The translations under genes and the position numbers were made by a program. This document shows positions 28,876 through 36,777 of a stretch of DNA of 64,000 nt, piece after piece. Each line of letters starts with the position of its first letter. The stretch's first letter is position 1. Source of the DNA: Deltaproteobacteria bacterium (GTDB lineage: Bacteria > Bdellovibrionota_B > Oligoflexia > Oligoflexales > CAIYRB01); the NCBI GenBank assembly GCA_016874735.1, contig VGTI01000002.1, positions 135,501-199,500 of the forward strand. The letters are read 5' to 3'. A model generated the notes under the pieces. It was not told where the DNA came from. It ran no database searches and saw only the letters and a list, made by a program, of their open reading frames with translations.

Positions 28876-30954
28876 TTATTTCACCCACAGGGTGAGCGTC
28901 GTACTTGCATCAGGCCAAGACCACCTCGAGACAGTGCTTAACGGATGCCAATGGAAGCCGTTCGTACCGTTACAGCACGCGTGGTATATATTCTCCGATA
29001 GCGTCTGATTGCCGGTGCAAGCACAGGTATAAGCAAGGTTGGAGTATCCTGGACTCCAGTGTGCCCCAGCATTGCCCATAGTTGCGTCGTCAGACAGGCC
29101 GTAATAGCTCCGAAGCCTTGAAATTGGAAATGTATCGGTACTCTTTATGTTTACAGAGTATGCTGGTGCCAGGATACGCACCGTGCTGCTATTTTGAGCG
29201 AGCGCTGGAAGTATGGTCGCGTTTAAAAGTCCAGGGGTCGTTGGCGCAAGCAGGCTACTTGCTACAGGGGTCGATGCATTTGAGTTTGTGGCCGCTACGA
29301 GCGTCCACCCCCCACCATCAGTCGTCATATCGCAGTAGACGCTCGTCGCCCCTAAGGTACCGGTAATGCCATCCGGATCGACGGTATAAACACCGTCGCC
29401 CACAGATTTACCGGTGTTGAGAAGTTCGGCACAGGTTTTTGCCGGCATGCCAAGATTGTATTTGTTACTAAGGTAATACTCGAGTCGGTGACGCTCGGCA
29501 TCGGTGATAGCGCGGTCGTAAATGATTGCCTCGGCGATATCACCGTAATAATAGGGATTACCACCCCCCGTATGACGGTAGGCCACGTTGAATTTACCCG
29601 AGCTTATAGACGGAGGCGAGTAGGCTGTAGTCGACTGAAGCACCAAGCCATCACGATAAAGTACGTAACTCGAGGTGGTGGACCGAATGGCGATCACGTG
29701 AGGTCCGAGCACTGTCTCATCAACTGGTGATACCGTGGCGGCATTCCTATAGCCAAAGTCGGATCCATTGTGCCACCGCTTGGCTGCCGATTCGTTGTAG
29801 TCAATCGCGTCGAACACAAAGCCATCTGCACTCTGCACAGACAGAGGACATCCCGCACTGGCCGTGCCAGTTGGTGTTAGCGTGGCCAAAGTGGTGACGA
29901 CCACCATAGTCTTTCCTGTTACCGTGCCCGTATAGTTGCCCTGCAAAAAATGTCCGGCGCCATTAAAACGCAGTACTGGCTTACCGTTAATTTGATTAGT
30001 CCTAAAAATAGGCTGGCTAGATCCGGTGGCTTGAGATACTGCAAATCCATTGCCACTCGCATCGGTCCAAGTTGCAACCGGGCTTCCATCTGCAACTCCG
30101 CTGATGCCGTCGGCACGTAACCATAGCTTTAAATTTGGAATCGAAGCTGGTCCCGCCACATCGTAAAATTGCTGCACAGGTGGTACAAATGACGTCGTAT
30201 AAAGGGCCTTGCCCTTAGTAATCCGAAGATCGTCGATATTGCCGTTAAATGGATAGTAGTAACAGCACTGATACTGCCCAATGTAGAGGTCGACGTTGCT
30301 TGCAAAGCGAGCCGCTGACGATACAATACTTGCTACGTTGTTGCCATCTAACCACAAAGTATGGGTATTTCCCATTCTAGTGTAAGCGGCATGGTGCCAA
30401 CGACCATCGGTAACCCCACTACCTCCAGTGAGTGCAAAATCATTCAAATTTAGATCTGCGAGAGCTAAAGCTAACTTGCCTGTGCTCTCCACACCAAATA
30501 TGGTATGTGATGCCGTATTGCTGCCGTCCCACATACCCACTATAGTCTGACTAGTTGCTGACGAGGTCTTGATAAAGGCTTCGATAGTGAAGTCATTAGT
30601 CCCCATCGCATAGACATCGCTTTGGCTTGCCTTGACGTAATTGCCGGAGGTGCCCGGTAGACTCAAACTGGCCGTCCCTTGCACAGCCGTGGCCGTTGAC
30701 AATTTCGCCGTACCGACGGTAGTGATCATCCCTCCTACAGAATCGAGCACAGTCGTAGCGTTATTGGCACCGTCCATGTGCAACATAAGTACAGGCATCG
30801 TAGTGGAGTTGTCGCCATTAGTCGCGTTTGCGCCATGCATCAGTCCAAGCTGCGGGAAAGCCAATGCGGTGGCAGCCACAACCAAAGGCGGCGCAACTAG
30901 TAACCAGCGCCGAGACGGCCACCAATTACTGGTAATTCTTGCCCGCAGACGCAT
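28876..30954 (-). CDS. Two LamG-like domains plus fibrinogen-C-terminal-like domain, surface lectin candidate
   Basis: About 692 residues from ATG 30954 (GGGAG 8 bases upstream; ATG 30972 is longer). Numbering from 30972: hydrophobic export segment or anchor ~22-50; first concanavalin-like/LamG domain ~60-270 (DFTIEAFIKT, GRWHHAAYTR, IDDLRITKGKALY); second ~280-510 (LKLWLRADGIS, WTDASGNG, AEAIIYDRAITDAERH); fibrinogen-like domain from ~513 with CAELL...VYCDMTTDGGGWTLV. A Cys-rich end follows (YTCACTGN, HACCNGTNGFHWHP). Both LamG and fibrinogen-related domains bind glycans, so a surface recognition role is likely. Its start lies inside the end of the fibre gene, so the two are co-expressed. 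Confidence 0.85.
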   Translation of the reverse strand: MRLRARITSNWWPSRRWLLVAPPLVVAATALAFPQLGLMHGANATNGDNSTTMPVLMLHMDGANNATTVLDSVGGMITTVGTAKLSTATAVQGTASLSLPGTSGNYVKASQSDVYAMGTNDFTIEAFIKTSSATSQTIVGMWDGSNTASHTIFGVESTGKLALALADLNLNDFALTGGSGVTDGRWHHAAYTRMGNTHTLWLDGNNVASIVSSAARFASNVDLYIGQYQCCYYYPFNGNIDDLRITKGKALYTTSFVPPVQQFYDVAGPASIPNLKLWLRADGISGVADGSPVATWTDASGNGFAVSQATGSSQPIFRTNQINGKPVLRFNGAGHFLQGNYTGTVTGKTMVVVTTLATLTPTGTASAGCPLSVQSADGFVFDAIDYNESAAKRWHNGSDFGYRNAATVSPVDETVLGPHVIAIRSTTSSYVLYRDGLVLQSTTAYSPPSISSGKFNVAYRHTGGGNPYYYGDIAEAIIYDRAITDAERHRLEYYLSNKYNLGMPAKTCAELLNTGKSVGDGVYTVDPDGITGTLGATSVYCDMTTDGGGWTLVAATNSNASTPVASSLLAPTTPGLLNATILPALAQNSSTVRILAPAYSVNIKSTDTFPISRLRSYYGLSDDATMGNAGAHWSPGYSNLAYTCACTGNQTLSENIYHACCNGTNGFHWHPLSTVSRWSWPDASTTLTLWVK

Positions 30955-33900
30955 AGTAGACGCTCCCGTCATAGAACATAGTCACAAAATCAACCGCACC
31001 CGAAATCGTACTCACGGAGTAGGGGATTCCGCCAGGCCATTTTACGCTAGCCGGCCACACAATATTGCGAGCATTGGCGCCCTGAATAATCTTAATACCG
31101 TATGATGCGCCTGCAACCGGGTTGGACATCGTGAGAGTCACATTACCCGTCGCACTCGCGAGGTCGACTACCTGCAGGTTACCTGCATTCCAATCTAATG
31201 TTTGCGTGGTTGCGGTTGGTACACTATTGGCCGGCATTGCCACAGCAACCTGGCCGGACACATGGAGCTTGGCCGTGGGAGAGGCAAAACCGACTCCCAA
31301 GTTGCCGCTCGCATCCAGTCTGATACCACTAGAGGCATTAGCCCAAGGCACAATGACAAATCCACCACCGGGATTCCCAATCGAACCGCCGCCGTAAATC
31401 AAACCTCTGTCACCCAAGGTAGTCATGCTGTTAAAGGCACCTTGGCTAAGATTTGCGCGAAGTGCAACAAAAGCGCTGTTGTTCCCGGTCAATGTCAGAC
31501 CTGAGTTGGTCACGCCGGTGTATAAATGCAAGTAGTCTCCGGGAGTCGCTGTACCGATGCCGATAGTGCCGTTACCGGTAATCCTCAGGCGCTCGGTATT
31601 ATTTGTCTTAATCGCCATATCGTTACTGGCATTGTCGTAATGTATCACACCGTAACCGTTATTGGTTGCCGAGCTGAACTTCAGTTGTGATGCACCGCTA
31701 TCGCCGCTCACTACGTTGATCGCATTCCAATAGCCAGCTCCACCGGTGCTGCTCACGACTAAAGCATCGCCAGAGACAAAGGTGGGATTCGATGTGCCTG
31801 TTCTCTGGACATGCAGCGAGGCTCCTGGATTCGTGGTCCCAATCCCTACGCTCCCACCTGGGCCTTGAAGAATCAAATTCCTGACGTTGATGCCGCTCTC
31901 TCTCGCGTAAATCCACCCAAAGTTATTGGTCGTGTCGAACCCCAAAGTCAGGCCACGAGCAGAGTTGGTGGACCCCGTCAGCGTGAGCTGAGCATAGTCA
32001 ATATTGGTACTGGTGTAATCGTAGGCCACTTGCAATGACGACGCTGATGCCGTGGTCCCGACGCCTACATTGCCACTGGTCGTCAGGGTAGTAAACGCGC
32101 CCGAGCTTGCGGTCGTGGCACCAATCGCTCCTGGCGCCGCCCAGTTGATTGAGGGAACCGGAGAACTTACCCAAGTGCCTCCGCTAGAGGTCAGAACGTT
32201 GCCAGAGTTGCCTGGTGCAACGGTTTGCAATGCACTTCCGCCGTTACCCAAAACAACTGAATTAGACGCTAAACTTGACACGCCCGTACCACCGTTAGCT
32301 ACGGCTAGAGTCCCCGACGTTATCATCGCCGCGCTGTGAGGCGGAATGTCAGCCGCGACTAAGGAAGTGCCAGAAGTGACGCGCCCTTTGACGTCATAGG
32401 TCACTTTGGTCGAAGTACCTGCGGCTGCAACCGTTGATAGAGTCGCAGTGGCAGTTCCTGCGGCAAAACCCGAGGTAGTGATATCTCCACTGAGCGAGGT
32501 GATATAACTGCCTGCCGGCTGTTTTGCATTAAATGCTGCGTAATCTGCGTTTGAAATCAAACCAGCTGTGACGTTAGCCGCCGAGGCCATCGGGATATTA
32601 AGTGTATGGATGTTACTCGTGGATACCCAGGCAGGGACCGTGCCAGTGGTACCAGGGTTCCCAAAGGACTGACTAGCTCCACTCAGCCCGTTGAGCGTCG
32701 CGATAGCGGCACCCACGGCACCGACTGTCTGGACGGCAGTGCCATCCCAGTATCTCAACTGGTTAGATGTCGCATTGAACCATGTTTTGCCTTTATCCGC
32801 GACAGTAAGGCCTACCGGGTCAGTTGTATTGTTGCTAAAGGCCAAGGTCTTCGACGCAGCCATCTGAATATTACCGGTGCTGTTAATATCAAATCCGCCA
32901 GCGTTTAGTGCGCCAGTTAAGGTATCACCCGCTTTATTGAACGGCGTATAACCAATAGCGTTTTGCTTAGCGTTAAATGTGCTCCAATCTGCGGAGCTTA
33001 GATACCCACTGCTTGATCCACTAGACTGACCAATGCCGATCGTTCCAGTGACGGTGCTATAAGTGATCGGCGCACTGCCAGAAAGTGAAGATATGGCCCG
33101 CGCTGGTGTAAAGTACTGATTGGTGCCCTCAGTCACTACAGTCGTATTCAGCGTCTGCCAGGTCTTGTCACCGCGGTAATACTGCGTGTTGGTGCCTGCA
33201 GCGACAGTAGATTCTTTAGCGGCGAGATCCGCGGTGAGTCCGCTGATCTTGGACTGAGCGATGGCAGCACCAACGGCGACGTCAGCATCGACAATGGTCG
33301 CAGCGCTTTGTGCCGCAGTGAGCCGACCCTGCGCATCGACGGTGATATTGGCGCGTGTGTAGCTGCCTGGTATGACGGCAGTGTCACTGAGGCTGATGGT
33401 GCCTGTTGCCGTGATAGGTCCACCAGTGAGACCAGTGCCTGTAGTGATATTGGTGACGGTGCCGCCGGAGGCTAATTTGGTGTAGGCGCCACCATTTTGC
33501 GAGATTTTGAATTCGTTGTCGGTTTGGTCGAAGTAGATTTTGCCTTGGCCCGCAGCGCTCAAATTGGGCGCTGCACTTGCTGCTTGCAAAATCACAGGAG
33601 CTGTCAGTGACGAGACCGATAGGCTATTAAACGTAGGCGATGCTGAGGTGCGGATATCCTGAGCCGTATCCAGCGTGATGGACCCGGCCCCGCTTGCAAT
33701 GCTAACACCGGCTTTGGCGCCCTGATTCAAAGTACCGAGAGCAAAGTTACCTGCGTTACCGATGAGTAACTGTCCGTTAGATGGCGCGGTGTTAAGACCC
33801 GTACCACCGTTAGCGACATTCAGAGTCCCAGAAGTTATGAGGCCTGCACTGTGAGGTGGTAAGTCCGCCGCAGCGAGCGATGTTCCGGTGGTGATACGGC

Positions 33901-36091
33901 CGTAAGCATCGGTGGTCACCTTTGTATAGGTGCCTACTGTGCCGGTGACTGGCAGACTTACCGTTGCCGTTGTACCCACGGTGGATACTTGCATGCCGTT
34001 TCCAGCGGTGACATTGCCGACTTTAGTATTAAACGTCGTATAGTCTGCTGTCGAAATAAGACCTGCAGCCACCCCAGCGCTTGAGGCAAGGGGGATGTTT
34101 AAGGTATGAGTCCCAGCACTGGAGACCCAGTTGGGTGCAGTGCCCGAAGACCACCCGGTGGCCAAGGTTTGGCTATTATTTGTCTGCCCGTTGAAGCTTT
34201 GCAGCCCTGATCCTGCTACGCCAAGCGTTTTAACAGTGGCTCCGTCCCAATACTTGAGCTCGTTACTGGTGCTGTTAAACCACATTTTGCCTTCGTCAGC
34301 GTCACCACTTAGTGCTGGATCCGAGGCGTTGGGGCTGAGACCAAAGACTTTGGCACTGGCCATGACCAGGTTGCCAGAAATTGTGTCGCCGGCTTTGTTT
34401 AGCGGAACGTAACCGAGCGCATTCTGCTTATTGTTAAACGTGGTCCAATCGGCTGAGCTCAAATACCCATTGGTAGTACCGCTACCTTGAGAAATCGCAA
34501 TATCACCAGTGGTGAAGTTGTAGCTCACTGGTGCTGTGGCCGTGAATACGCCTTTAGCTCTGGCTGCGGTGAAGTACTGATTGGTCCCCTCAGTGACAGC
34601 GTCAGAATCAAGTGCCTGCCAAGATTTATCACCGCGCCAGTATTGTGACGTCGTGCCACCGGCAATGGTTGGCTCTTTGCTGGCCAGCGATGTGCCTAGG
34701 CCGCTAATCTTTGTCTGGGCGATGTTCGCTACTGCGTCGATATCTGCGTCCGTAATGGCAGGGCCGCTACTTGCTGCCGTGAGTCGTCCTTGTTGATCGA
34801 CGGAAATCGTTGCTCGGTTGAAGGTGCCAGGTGTGACGTTAGTGTTTGCAAGTTCGATGGTACCCGATCCAGTGATAGGGCCACCAGTAAGACCCACACC
34901 GGTATTGATTGATGTGACGCTACCAACTGCAGGCGCAGTCCACGAGGCTAGACCGTTGGCATCACTGGTGAGGACTTTACCCGCACCGGGCGAGCCACCT
35001 TGGATTTTGATCTGACCGATGACGTCGAGTTTAGCTGAGGGCTCAGTGGAGCCGATGCCTAAGTTGCCGCTATTGACGATGTCTTTGCCACCGACATTCC
35101 ACGCTCCGATAAGTGGCACCGATCCATCTTGGCGGAGCGCTGACGTATCAACGTAGCTCTTGGATGCTGCATCACTCGCGTCAGCAGGCGTGGCGAGACC
35201 AGTAAGGGTCTTGCCGTTCATATTGATTGTGCCACCGAGAGTATCGCCAGCCTTGTTTATCGGCGTGAATCCAAGAGCATCTTGTTTTGTGTTGAAATTA
35301 CTCCAATCTCCTGAACTCAAATAACCCGAAGCTGTGCCGCTAGCCTTAGCGATACTAATATTGGGTGCTGTTCCTGCCCCCGCGACGGTGATGGGTGCGA
35401 CACCGCTTAGTTCGGTCACAAAGCCCGTAGCCTGGGCAACATCAGCGGCGATCCACTTGCCGTTGCTATATGTAAGTACCTGCTTATCAGTCGGTGCAGC
35501 ATTAGCTTCGTTCTTGGCGACTAACTGGGTGGCGTCGATTTTTTTCCAAGTAAAGCCACCGCGACCATCGCTAGTCATGACACTGCCGTCGGTCGCTCCG
35601 CTATCCATTTTAATGCGGAGCTTGCCACTCGTGTCACTATAGTCAAAATGACTCTCGTCCACCGGGATGCGCAGCGCCAATGGCGTGTATATGTAGCGTT
35701 GGCGGGGATAAGTTTTACCGCCAGCACTAATCTCGATATAGACTGCGCTGGTACCGTTACCAAACACTGCAGCAAGATCGGGGCCTGAAAAGGGAAGATC
35801 GATGGCGAAGAGGCCGTTGCTTAGATTGATGCCAGGCTTGCTGATGCTGCGCCCGCGCTGCTCGCCTTCAGTGGCAGCGCTCCAGAAGCTCACCTCGATA
35901 TCTACCGCGCCCTCAACGGGAGCGCCGTTGGCTTGCGTGAGGCGTCCTGCGTAATTCATGCTAAAAGTTTCTTCTCCAACTGCGCGAGATGATTCCGCAA
36001 GGAGAGCAACAAACACAACACCAACGAGGCACGCAATACCGCGCGCAGCGGCAGCGATCGTACTCTGCGATTTGGCGTTTACAGTGCCCAT
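30926..36091 (-). CDS. Giant phage-tail-fibre-like surface adhesin
   Basis: About 1,721 residues from the ATG at 36091; a TTG at 36145 is the longer alternative and neither has a strong Shine-Dalgarno. A signal peptide (GIACLVGVVFVALLAESSRA) is followed by a domain with NYAGRLTQANGAPV and YPRQRYIYTPLALRIP, as at the N-terminus of Bdellovibrio fibre proteins. Then come repeated tail-fibre motifs: SGYLSSxDWxxFNxKQ, GYxPxNKAGDT, NVANGGTG, and GIGTxxPxAxLHV. The C-terminal ~90 residues (SNPVAGASYGIKIIQ, VWPASVKWPGG, FYDGSVYYASAGKN) are a typical phage fibre tip. Likely trimeric and displayed at the surface for prey, host or surface contact (inference). Overlaps the LamG gene by 29 bases. Confidence 0.9.
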   Translation of the reverse strand: MGTVNAKSQSTIAAAARGIACLVGVVFVALLAESSRAVGEETFSMNYAGRLTQANGAPVEGAVDIEVSFWSAATEGEQRGRSISKPGINLSNGLFAIDLPFSGPDLAAVFGNGTSAVYIEISAGGKTYPRQRYIYTPLALRIPVDESHFDYSDTSGKLRIKMDSGATDGSVMTSDGRGGFTWKKIDATQLVAKNEANAAPTDKQVLTYSNGKWIAADVAQATGFVTELSGVAPITVAGAGTAPNISIAKASGTASGYLSSGDWSNFNTKQDALGFTPINKAGDTLGGTINMNGKTLTGLATPADASDAASKSYVDTSALRQDGSVPLIGAWNVGGKDIVNSGNLGIGSTEPSAKLDVIGQIKIQGGSPGAGKVLTSDANGLASWTAPAVGSVTSINTGVGLTGGPITGSGTIELANTNVTPGTFNRATISVDQQGRLTAASSGPAITDADIDAVANIAQTKISGLGTSLASKEPTIAGGTTSQYWRGDKSWQALDSDAVTEGTNQYFTAARAKGVFTATAPVSYNFTTGDIAISQGSGTTNGYLSSADWTTFNNKQNALGYVPLNKAGDTISGNLVMASAKVFGLSPNASDPALSGDADEGKMWFNSTSNELKYWDGATVKTLGVAGSGLQSFNGQTNNSQTLATGWSSGTAPNWVSSAGTHTLNIPLASSAGVAAGLISTADYTTFNTKVGNVTAGNGMQVSTVGTTATVSLPVTGTVGTYTKVTTDAYGRITTGTSLAAADLPPHSAGLITSGTLNVANGGTGLNTAPSNGQLLIGNAGNFALGTLNQGAKAGVSIASGAGSITLDTAQDIRTSASPTFNSLSVSSLTAPVILQAASAAPNLSAAGQGKIYFDQTDNEFKISQNGGAYTKLASGGTVTNITTGTGLTGGPITATGTISLSDTAVIPGSYTRANITVDAQGRLTAAQSAATIVDADVAVGAAIAQSKISGLTADLAAKESTVAAGTNTQYYRGDKTWQTLNTTVVTEGTNQYFTPARAISSLSGSAPITYSTVTGTIGIGQSSGSSSGYLSSADWSTFNAKQNAIGYTPFNKAGDTLTGALNAGGFDINSTGNIQMAASKTLAFSNNTTDPVGLTVADKGKTWFNATSNQLRYWDGTAVQTVGAVGAAIATLNGLSGASQSFGNPGTTGTVPAWVSTSNIHTLNIPMASAANVTAGLISNADYAAFNAKQPAGSYITSLSGDITTSGFAAGTATATLSTVAAAGTSTKVTYDVKGRVTSGTSLVAADIPPHSAAMITSGTLAVANGGTGVSSLASNSVVLGNGGSALQTVAPGNSGNVLTSSGGTWVSSPVPSINWAAPGAIGATTASSGAFTTLTTSGNVGVGTTASASSLQVAYDYTSTNIDYAQLTLTGSTNSARGLTLGFDTTNNFGWIYARESGINVRNLILQGPGGSVGIGTTNPGASLHVQRTGTSNPTFVSGDALVVSSTGGAGYWNAINVVSGDSGASQLKFSSATNNGYGVIHYDNASNDMAIKTNNTERLRITGNGTIGIGTATPGDYLHLYTGVTNSGLTLTGNNSAFVALRANLSQGAFNSMTTLGDRGLIYGGGSIGNPGGGFVIVPWANASSGIRLDASGNLGVGFASPTAKLHVSGQVAVAMPANSVPTATTQTLDWNAGNLQVVDLASATGNVTLTMSNPVAGASYGIKIIQGANARNIVWPASVKWPGGIPYSVSTISGAVDFVTMFYDGSVYYASAGKNYQ
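32218..34918 (-). repeat. Long internal duplication in the fibre gene
   Basis: Residues ~410-790 and ~898-1310 (numbered from 36145) share the same ordered motifs: TGxGLTGGPITxxGTI, VDxQGRLTAA, IAQxKISGL, QYxRGDKxWQ, VTEGTNQYFTxARA, SGYLSSADWxTFN, NKAGDT, WFNxTSNxLxYWDG, HTLNIPxAS, TKVTxDxxGRxTxGTSLxAADxPPHSA and VANGGTG. These are diverged tandem copies of a ~400-residue block. Confidence 0.85.
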
Positions 36092-36372
36092 CCGATCCAA
36101 CCAAACACTTTGAGAGGTGGACGAAATGTCCCTCTTTTCCCTCAAAAGCGGGGTTCGACGCTGCTTGAGCGGATCTTTAAAAGTATTTTTTTGACCCTAT
36201 GATTTCAGCAGCTTACAACGCTGTTTGCGATCGCTAGTTTTTGTAGGCAGGGATTGTTTTGGCCAGAGATAAAGTCCGAGCAAAGTCAGAGGGTTGCAGA
36301 AAACTCAAAATTCTTCAAAAATTCGGGCACTTAGACCACTCGAAAAAGGAGGCGATTGACCACGAGCTTGGC

Positions 36373-36399: not shown

Positions 36400-36777
36400 T
36401 CACTGATTAACGTACTGCAGACAACCATTGGTGCAACGGAATGTTCCAGCACCCTGACCCCACGGCGTACCAACTTGGCCCTCGGAGTAACCGACGAAGG
36501 AACATGTTCTGCCGTCGCGGTTGTAAGCGTAGCAGTTATTGCCCGATCCTGACGATCCACCTGATGACCCACCGCCTGTCCAACCTGGATCTACATGACC
36601 GTTACCGTAGTCAACTGCCGATACGCATGGGACGTAGGCCGAATCCCAGCTACCTGGCCAGAGGCACTCTTCTGACCATTCCTGCGCGTGAGCCATCCCG
36701 GCCACAAAGACCGAAGATACTAGTGCGCCCTTAACTAATCTCGCCATCGATGCCACAACAACTAAATCTTTTACCAT
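36400..36777 (-). CDS. Secreted small Cys-rich protein
   Basis: 125 residues. Signal peptide ending GALVSSVFVAGMAHAQ, then ~90 mature residues with six cysteines (EECLW, VPCVS, NNCYAY, RTCSF, FRCTN, GCLQ), able to form three disulfides, and a Gly/Ser linker (GGGSSGGSSGSG). AAAGG lies 9 bases before the ATG. No family recognised. It is ~250 bases upstream of the fibre gene on the same strand; a shared surface or prey-contact role is speculation. Confidence 0.7.
   Translation of the reverse strand: MVKDLVVVASMARLVKGALVSSVFVAGMAHAQEWSEECLWPGSWDSAYVPCVSAVDYGNGHVDPGWTGGGSSGGSSGSGNNCYAYNRDGRTCSFVGYSEGQVGTPWGQGAGTFRCTNGCLQYVNQ

Follow-up and report, generated by a model that had tools for sequence, protein, structure and literature searches.

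Organization of the locus

The DNA analyzed here is a 64,000-nt stretch of contig VGTI01000002.1 (positions 135,501 to 199,500; hereafter the window), whose minus strand encodes a giant secreted fibre and, in an overlapping downstream gene, a smaller secreted protein that we call its partner. What is new here is a fibre in which no adhesin was recognized and whose type of terminal domain is tied to such a separate secreted protein. The fibre open reading frame (ORF; 30926-36145, 1,739 aa) is open from a TTG at 36145, and its first in-frame ATG, at 36091, lies ahead of a signal-peptide-like sequence and gives a product of about 1,721 aa. The partner ORF (28876-30972, 698 codons) overlaps the fibre gene by 47 nt if its first ATG is used, and by 29 nt from the ATG at 30954, which is preceded by a Shine-Dalgarno-like GGGAG. 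A first-pass annotation of the region, made from the letters alone, had described an exported protein of about 1,720 residues with phage-fibre repeats, whose stop overlaps the start of a lectin-like protein; the size, the export signal, the phage-type shaft repeats and the overlap all hold, the partner carrying LamG and a fibrinogen-like domain. That annotation had also spoken of a fibre tip, implying an adhesin on the fibre itself, and this part needs correcting: no adhesin domain was recognized on the fibre chain, for which a Pfam scan gave no match. The C-terminal domain of the partner matches PF00147 (Fibrinogen_C, E 8e-6) and NCBIfam GGGWT_bact (E 1.9e-17). Signal peptides were called by a simple heuristic, and that of the partner is possibly of the Tat (twin-arginine translocation) type.

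The fibre is MAT-like and ends in a phage tail-fibre domain

The window fibre resembles the mosaic adhesive trimer (MAT) family of Bdellovibrio, every member of which has a signal peptide followed by a beta-rich domain of about 130 aa (PMC10769870). The architecture here is comparable: a signal peptide precedes a conserved N-terminal domain of about 140 aa, a putative counterpart that is mainly beta in its AlphaFold2 model (predicted local distance difference test score, pLDDT, 83). About 46 copies of this domain are scattered over the analyzed genome (G000, a fragmented draft assembly of 4.65 Mb in 166 contigs, 97% complete, in which many contigs stop inside fibre genes), and all six genomes of the genus contain between 6 and 47; the search set at phylum level consisted of genomes of the window's own class only, and the solved Bdellovibrio chains cover the tips. 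The resemblance extends to the shaft, where the capping-loop motif SGNLGVGFASPTAKLHV of the last module matches the solved Bdellovibrio fibre Bd2133 (8ond, E 1e-5) and, more weakly, other Bdellovibrio fibre chains. When the last 134 residues of the fibre were searched by sequence against solved structures, this capping loop was the sole convincing match. Complete members of the N-domain family in G000 have ends as varied as a full Fibrinogen_C, an FGE/C-type-lectin-like domain and an S74 chaperone, among others, and diverse C-terminal tips, a large paralogous family and S74 members are likewise points of likeness to MATs. G000 thus carries a MAT-like fibre repertoire, larger than the 21 MATs of B. 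bacteriovorus HD100 (PMC10769870).

The end of the window fibre is a direct relative, by sequence and by fold, of the phage tail-fibre C-terminal domain phrog_9017. Residues 1638-1727 match this PHROGs family, annotated as "tail fiber protein", with an E-value of 4.6e-10, and the window domain is 40% identical to that of an IMG/VR phage (L121). The AlphaFold2 model of the domain, about 95 aa long (pLDDT 88.8), retrieved with Foldseek at least 319 phage models from BFVD at E ≤ 1e-3, with the best E-values down to 1e-13, and gave weak matches only, to a phage tailspike and to T4 gp10, against solved structures. We found no description of the function of this domain in phages among the open-licence papers searched. 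Seven G000 fibres, the window's included, were first found to end in this domain, and two more were recovered by profile. Profiles also detected it in G014-G017, four more members of the genus, and in G012, from another family of the same order, and a class-level search gave no positive genomes beyond those of the order-level search. The contig scan for the domain used a closer subset of the alignment, the first alignment being too diverse.

In phages this domain ends tail fibres, whereas here it lies on a secreted bacterial fibre. The phage type of both shaft repeats and terminal domain would be compatible with a prophage or tailocin remnant whose proteins are virion fibres. We regard this explanation as very improbable given that both fibre and partner carry signal peptides, that the genes examined near the locus are cellular (M48 peptidase, DoxX, TPM and LemA), and that the N-domain is dispersed over the genome and expanded across the genus.

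The terminal domain is associated with a downstream secreted partner

We next compared fibres ending in this domain, our proposed dock, with other fibres. A partner was scored if it lay on the same strand, started at −60 to +130 bp, was at least 150 aa long and had a signal peptide by the heuristic; fibres were counted only when followed by at least 600 bp of sequence. Such a gene follows 22 of the 24 dock-terminal fibres; among the other fibres it follows 1 of 20 (Fisher 3.8e-9). These counts include non-independent paralogues, and all controls come from G000; within G000 alone the proportions are 8/9 and 1/20 (p 1.8e-5). The lone positive control is a lipoprotein-like ORF behind a fibre whose end looks frameshifted. 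One more dock-terminal fibre (L096) was left out of the count because too little sequence follows it; a partner begins there at gap 0, immediately ahead of the contig end.

The bodies of these partners are dissimilar: LamG, fibrinogen-like, FN3 with Gly-rich, Gly_rich_2, SBBP and Rax2-type propellers, bacterial Ig, and Cys-rich proteins without a Pfam family. At L025, a fibre closely related to the window's and 87% identical to it in the N-terminal region has another dock subtype and another partner, and a LamG and fibrinogen-like partner lies behind a fibre with the same tip subtype as the window's in another genome (L102). Two adhesin types seen as separate partners also occur in cis on fibres lacking a terminal dock, namely Fibrinogen_C (L045) and FGE (L049), and in one bacterial locus (L118) dock and LamG are fused in one chain. 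Partner-like secreted proteins also occur in places other than directly behind a dock fibre. A second fibrinogen-like protein with the same QFNAGMFV N-terminus lies in tandem at L025:2528-4364, a divergent partner-like protein is encoded at L039:18159-19052, and an upstream LamG protein with a QTGPGAMLKP start and, by eye, formylglycine-enzyme-like repeats is encoded at L043:8157-10637; these are possibly spare cartridges.

Genes directly downstream of phage tail-fibre genes often encode chaperones (PMC9608196, PMC12892980), and the partner could be an assembly chaperone dedicated to its fibre, in the manner of T4 gp38, Tfa or Pam3 gp25, which would fold the fibre end and then leave. That partners are tied to one fibre-end type fits this proposal. 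However, a single client domain should mean a single protein family, whereas the partners have several unrelated and mostly lectin- or adhesin-type bodies, some of which also exist in cis on other fibres. Moreover, the window partner has no match to the Tfa family, and two Gly-rich partners match phrog_863 "tail fiber assembly" (E ~1e-9) only across their Gly-rich part. A chaperone that merely departs after folding is therefore an improbable account of the locus. A tip adhesin may also help assembly, such that the two roles are not exclusive.

Partners with dissimilar bodies share an N-terminal motif

Despite their dissimilar bodies, the mature partners begin with a short aromatic/Gly motif that controls lack. 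Examples are QFNAGMFVRAP, QFNALMFMKTQ, QVGHGAFLKPR, QFAPGAFLKPR, QIGFSPMMMSG, GYYNLQGFLIRR, GYYNGFGWSTT, FPQLGLMHGAN (window), FPFQLLQQGS and FPLGIPLRGS. Among partners with dissimilar bodies, the mean Smith-Waterman score of the N-termini is 16.0, compared with 13.04 ± 0.28 in other secreted proteins (300 draws, maximum 13.9, cleavage called automatically). Peptide similarity also tracks dock similarity over all pairs (Mantel r 0.33, p 0.0002, with manually drawn peptide boundaries), and weakly so when only dissimilar bodies are compared (r 0.18, p 0.03).

These data bear on another explanation, an ordinary adhesin operon whose two secreted lectin products are expressed together without binding each other. 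Surface proteins are commonly encoded in operons, and both products are secreted. We nevertheless consider it unlikely, because other G000 fibres lack such neighbours (1/20), because partners with unlike bodies have similar N-termini that vary in step with the dock, and because the same arrangement exists in phages.

Phages carry a parallel arrangement

On IMG/VR phage contigs the terminal domain likewise closes tail fibres, and the next gene often encodes a protein whose first few residues are conserved. Those lying 0-6 bp behind the fibre include proteins that start MIVYPFSFIK, MIVYPHSYLK, MILYPLAFIS and MITFPVSLLS; MPLGFKGNIL and M(S/T)IPFNFSFW are further starts found directly downstream. 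The bodies recognized by Pfam in these proteins are LamG (L135, L169, L180), Gly_rich_2 with Fibrinogen_C (L136) and FG-GAP (L182). Because genes in phages lie close together anyway, mere adjacency was given no weight; the evidence taken was the N-termini alone, which resemble the bacterial motif more closely than do the N-termini of the remaining genes of those contigs (p 0.005). Beyond the window's genome, the pairing is found again in congeneric genomes, in a second family of the order and in phages. The first-pass annotation would have been refuted had the two genes never stood together elsewhere, and they do, with a LamG and fibrinogen-like partner at L102 and with LamG partners behind the phage version. 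We found no description of the pairing of this terminal domain with a downstream partner in the open-licence literature.

Other features of the locus and of the fibre family

The features of the locus are collected in Table 1. Upstream of the fibre ORF by 254 bp, on the same strand, lies a small secreted Gly/Ser/Cys-containing protein of 125 aa (36400-36777) without a Pfam match. Elsewhere in G000, contigs C18 and C20 (L218-L223) bear two giant uninterrupted frames of 15,097 and 12,490 codons that begin with the same N-domain and continue into phage-fibre-like repeats, few of them exact (92-94% distinct 8-mers); they are extreme-length members of the N-domain fibre family. ATPase genes of an 'ARQVGKT' P-loop type are directly upstream of several fibres (L054:5772-7106, L061:5934-7118, L033:7673-8923 and L047:11478-12794). 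Several fibres also adjoin toxin-antitoxin-like genes (L025:1577-2414, L029:17129-17443, L040:9449-10001, L041:4079-4562, L048:5239-5634 and L109:431-1157), named by eye as nucleotidyltransferase/HEPN-like, HipAB-like, BrnTA-like and PIN/Phd-like. The source organism belongs to an uncultured lineage, and its nearest named relatives are uncultured metagenome-assembled genomes, two of them apparently named after lakes (Lac Pavin and Loclat).

Table 1. Coordinates of the fibre and partner features within the window.
Feature	Coordinates	Strand	Remarks
MAT-like fibre gene	30926..36091	-	ATG at 36091; ORF open from TTG 36145
Fibre signal peptide	35981..36091	-	Read by eye from translation; cleavage inferred after ..ESSRA
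Fibre N-terminal domain, NYAGRLTQANGAPV..YIYTPLALR..	35546..35965	-	Residues 61-200, 140 aa
Phage tail-fibre-like shaft repeats	31331..35545	-
Last beta-helix capping-loop module, DASGNLGVGFASPTAKLHVSG	31253..31330	-	As in Bd2133
Fibre C-terminal domain, proposed dock, KWPGG subtype	30929..31216	-	Residues 1644-1739; phage tail-fibre tip fold
Secreted partner, separate gene, proposed tip adhesin	28876..30954	-	692 aa from ATG 30954; Shine-Dalgarno GGGAG
Partner signal peptide, ..SRRWLLVAPPLVVAATALA	30859..30954	-	Cleavage at the end of the motif, set by eye two residues beyond the automatic site
Proposed docking peptide, mature N-terminus FPQLGLMHGANATNG	30814..30858	-	Compare L102 FPFQLLQQGS, L107 FPLGIPLRGS
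LamG domain PF13385	30214..30648	-	Partner residues 109-253, E 4.3e-23
Second LamG-like stretch	29452..30153	-	Residues 274-507; 55% identical to partner-type protein L043:8157-10637
Fibrinogen-like GGGW core	29296..29436	-	Partner residues 513-559

Discussion

The locus probably makes a surface fibre of two components, the terminal domain serving as a dock and the partner as an exchangeable adhesin that is held by its N-terminus. The first gene would provide a secreted MAT-like fibre without a recognizable adhesin of its own, ending in the phage-type dock, and the second, overlapping gene a secreted LamG/fibrinogen-like adhesin. Once the signal peptide is removed, the exposed aromatic/Gly-rich N-terminus FPQLGLMHGANATNG, or about its first dozen residues, would plug into the dock, and the adhesin would cap the fibre. 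Since many paralogous fibres appear to combine this kind of dock with adhesin bodies unrelated to one another, specificity could change by replacing the small downstream gene, usually together with a matching dock, while shaft and anchor stay. The two genes, their domain architecture, the link between dock type and a secreted neighbour, the common partner N-termini and the phage parallel are observed; physical docking and its stoichiometry, display at the cell surface and binding to other cells, perhaps with recognition of prey, are inferred. The first-pass suggestion of a second protein that may assemble with the fibre tip has good support, at the level of sequence, from the dependence on dock type, from recurrence and from the shared partner N-termini.

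Several observations weigh against this interpretation. Two dock-terminal fibres have no downstream partner: at L039 a partner-like gene, similar in sequence to the L046 partner, is instead divergently upstream, and at L109 a toxin-antitoxin-like pair lies behind the fibre. The terminal domain sits internally in two bacterial fibres (L043, L097), and in phages an unrelated gene often comes next (L137, L144, L153), which means that the domain can end a fibre without a partner. The window peptide itself falls outside the clearest motif matches. To these should be added the single-genome origin of the controls, the paralogues among the counts, the hand-set peptide boundaries and the weak correlation among dissimilar bodies. 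Finally, the structure predictions cover single chains.

Comparison with known systems helps to place the proposed mechanism. For the six MATs whose tips have been solved, the adhesin belongs to the fibre chain itself (PMC10769870), whereas here a subset of fibres ends in a phage-type terminal domain, the LamG and fibrinogen-like domains being on a separate secreted protein; the N-domain is also more abundant, with about 46 copies compared with 21 MATs in HD100. In the crystal, a pocket at the trimer interface of the Bd2133 tip holds one hexapeptide of N-terminal origin (PMC10769870), which provides a structural hint for peptide docking, though in another tip fold. A functional parallel is gp37-gp38 of phages T2 and S16, in which a separate adhesin gene directly downstream of the fibre gene encodes a protein that caps the fibre end, and whose Gly-rich bodies also have counterparts among the partners described here. 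In S16, one gp38 caps the gp37 trimer through hydrophobic N-terminal contacts (PMC6851490), and the N-terminus of gp38 sets compatibility with gp37; the adhesin can be exchanged by swapping that part (PMC6851490, PMC12892980). The window pair would work in a similar way, yet gp38 uses a bundle of three helices with Trp residues for attachment, compared with the short peptide proposed here, and our proteins are both secreted and bacterial, with partner bodies of several kinds. The Pfam and PHROGs matches of the partners scanned include no gp38 family. Because no homology was found by any test made and the attachment part differs, the partner is not assigned to gp38. Two-gene tail spikes of Dhillonvirus, Traversvirus and Littlefixvirus likewise lack a receptor-binding end of their own, their downstream-encoded proteins being modelled at the trimer tip; these are other phages with immunoglobulin-like or hand-like partners, and the section consulted mentions no shared N-terminal peptide (PMC12309495).

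MAT fibres are a leading candidate for prey recognition by predatory bacteria. That the pairing is found again in phages and in related genomes points to an ability of bacteria to alter fibre binding by swapping the tip protein alone. If our interpretation is correct, such swapping would need no in-frame recombination with the fibre gene, many secreted LamG, fibrinogen-like and Gly-rich proteins encoded beside fibres would gain a partner and a test, and unrecognized receptor-binding proteins would be predicted in some phages with tail fibres ending in this domain. Whether the arrangement is part of a general "dock and cartridge" system of phages and bacteria, in which one terminal domain receives adhesins of many unrelated kinds by way of a short peptide at their N-termini, is a broader proposal to which we give about even chances. 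The tandem or orphan cartridges at L025, L039 and L043 would then fit cassette stacking, and a bacterium with dozens of fibres would change its specificity by swapping or stacking small cassettes.

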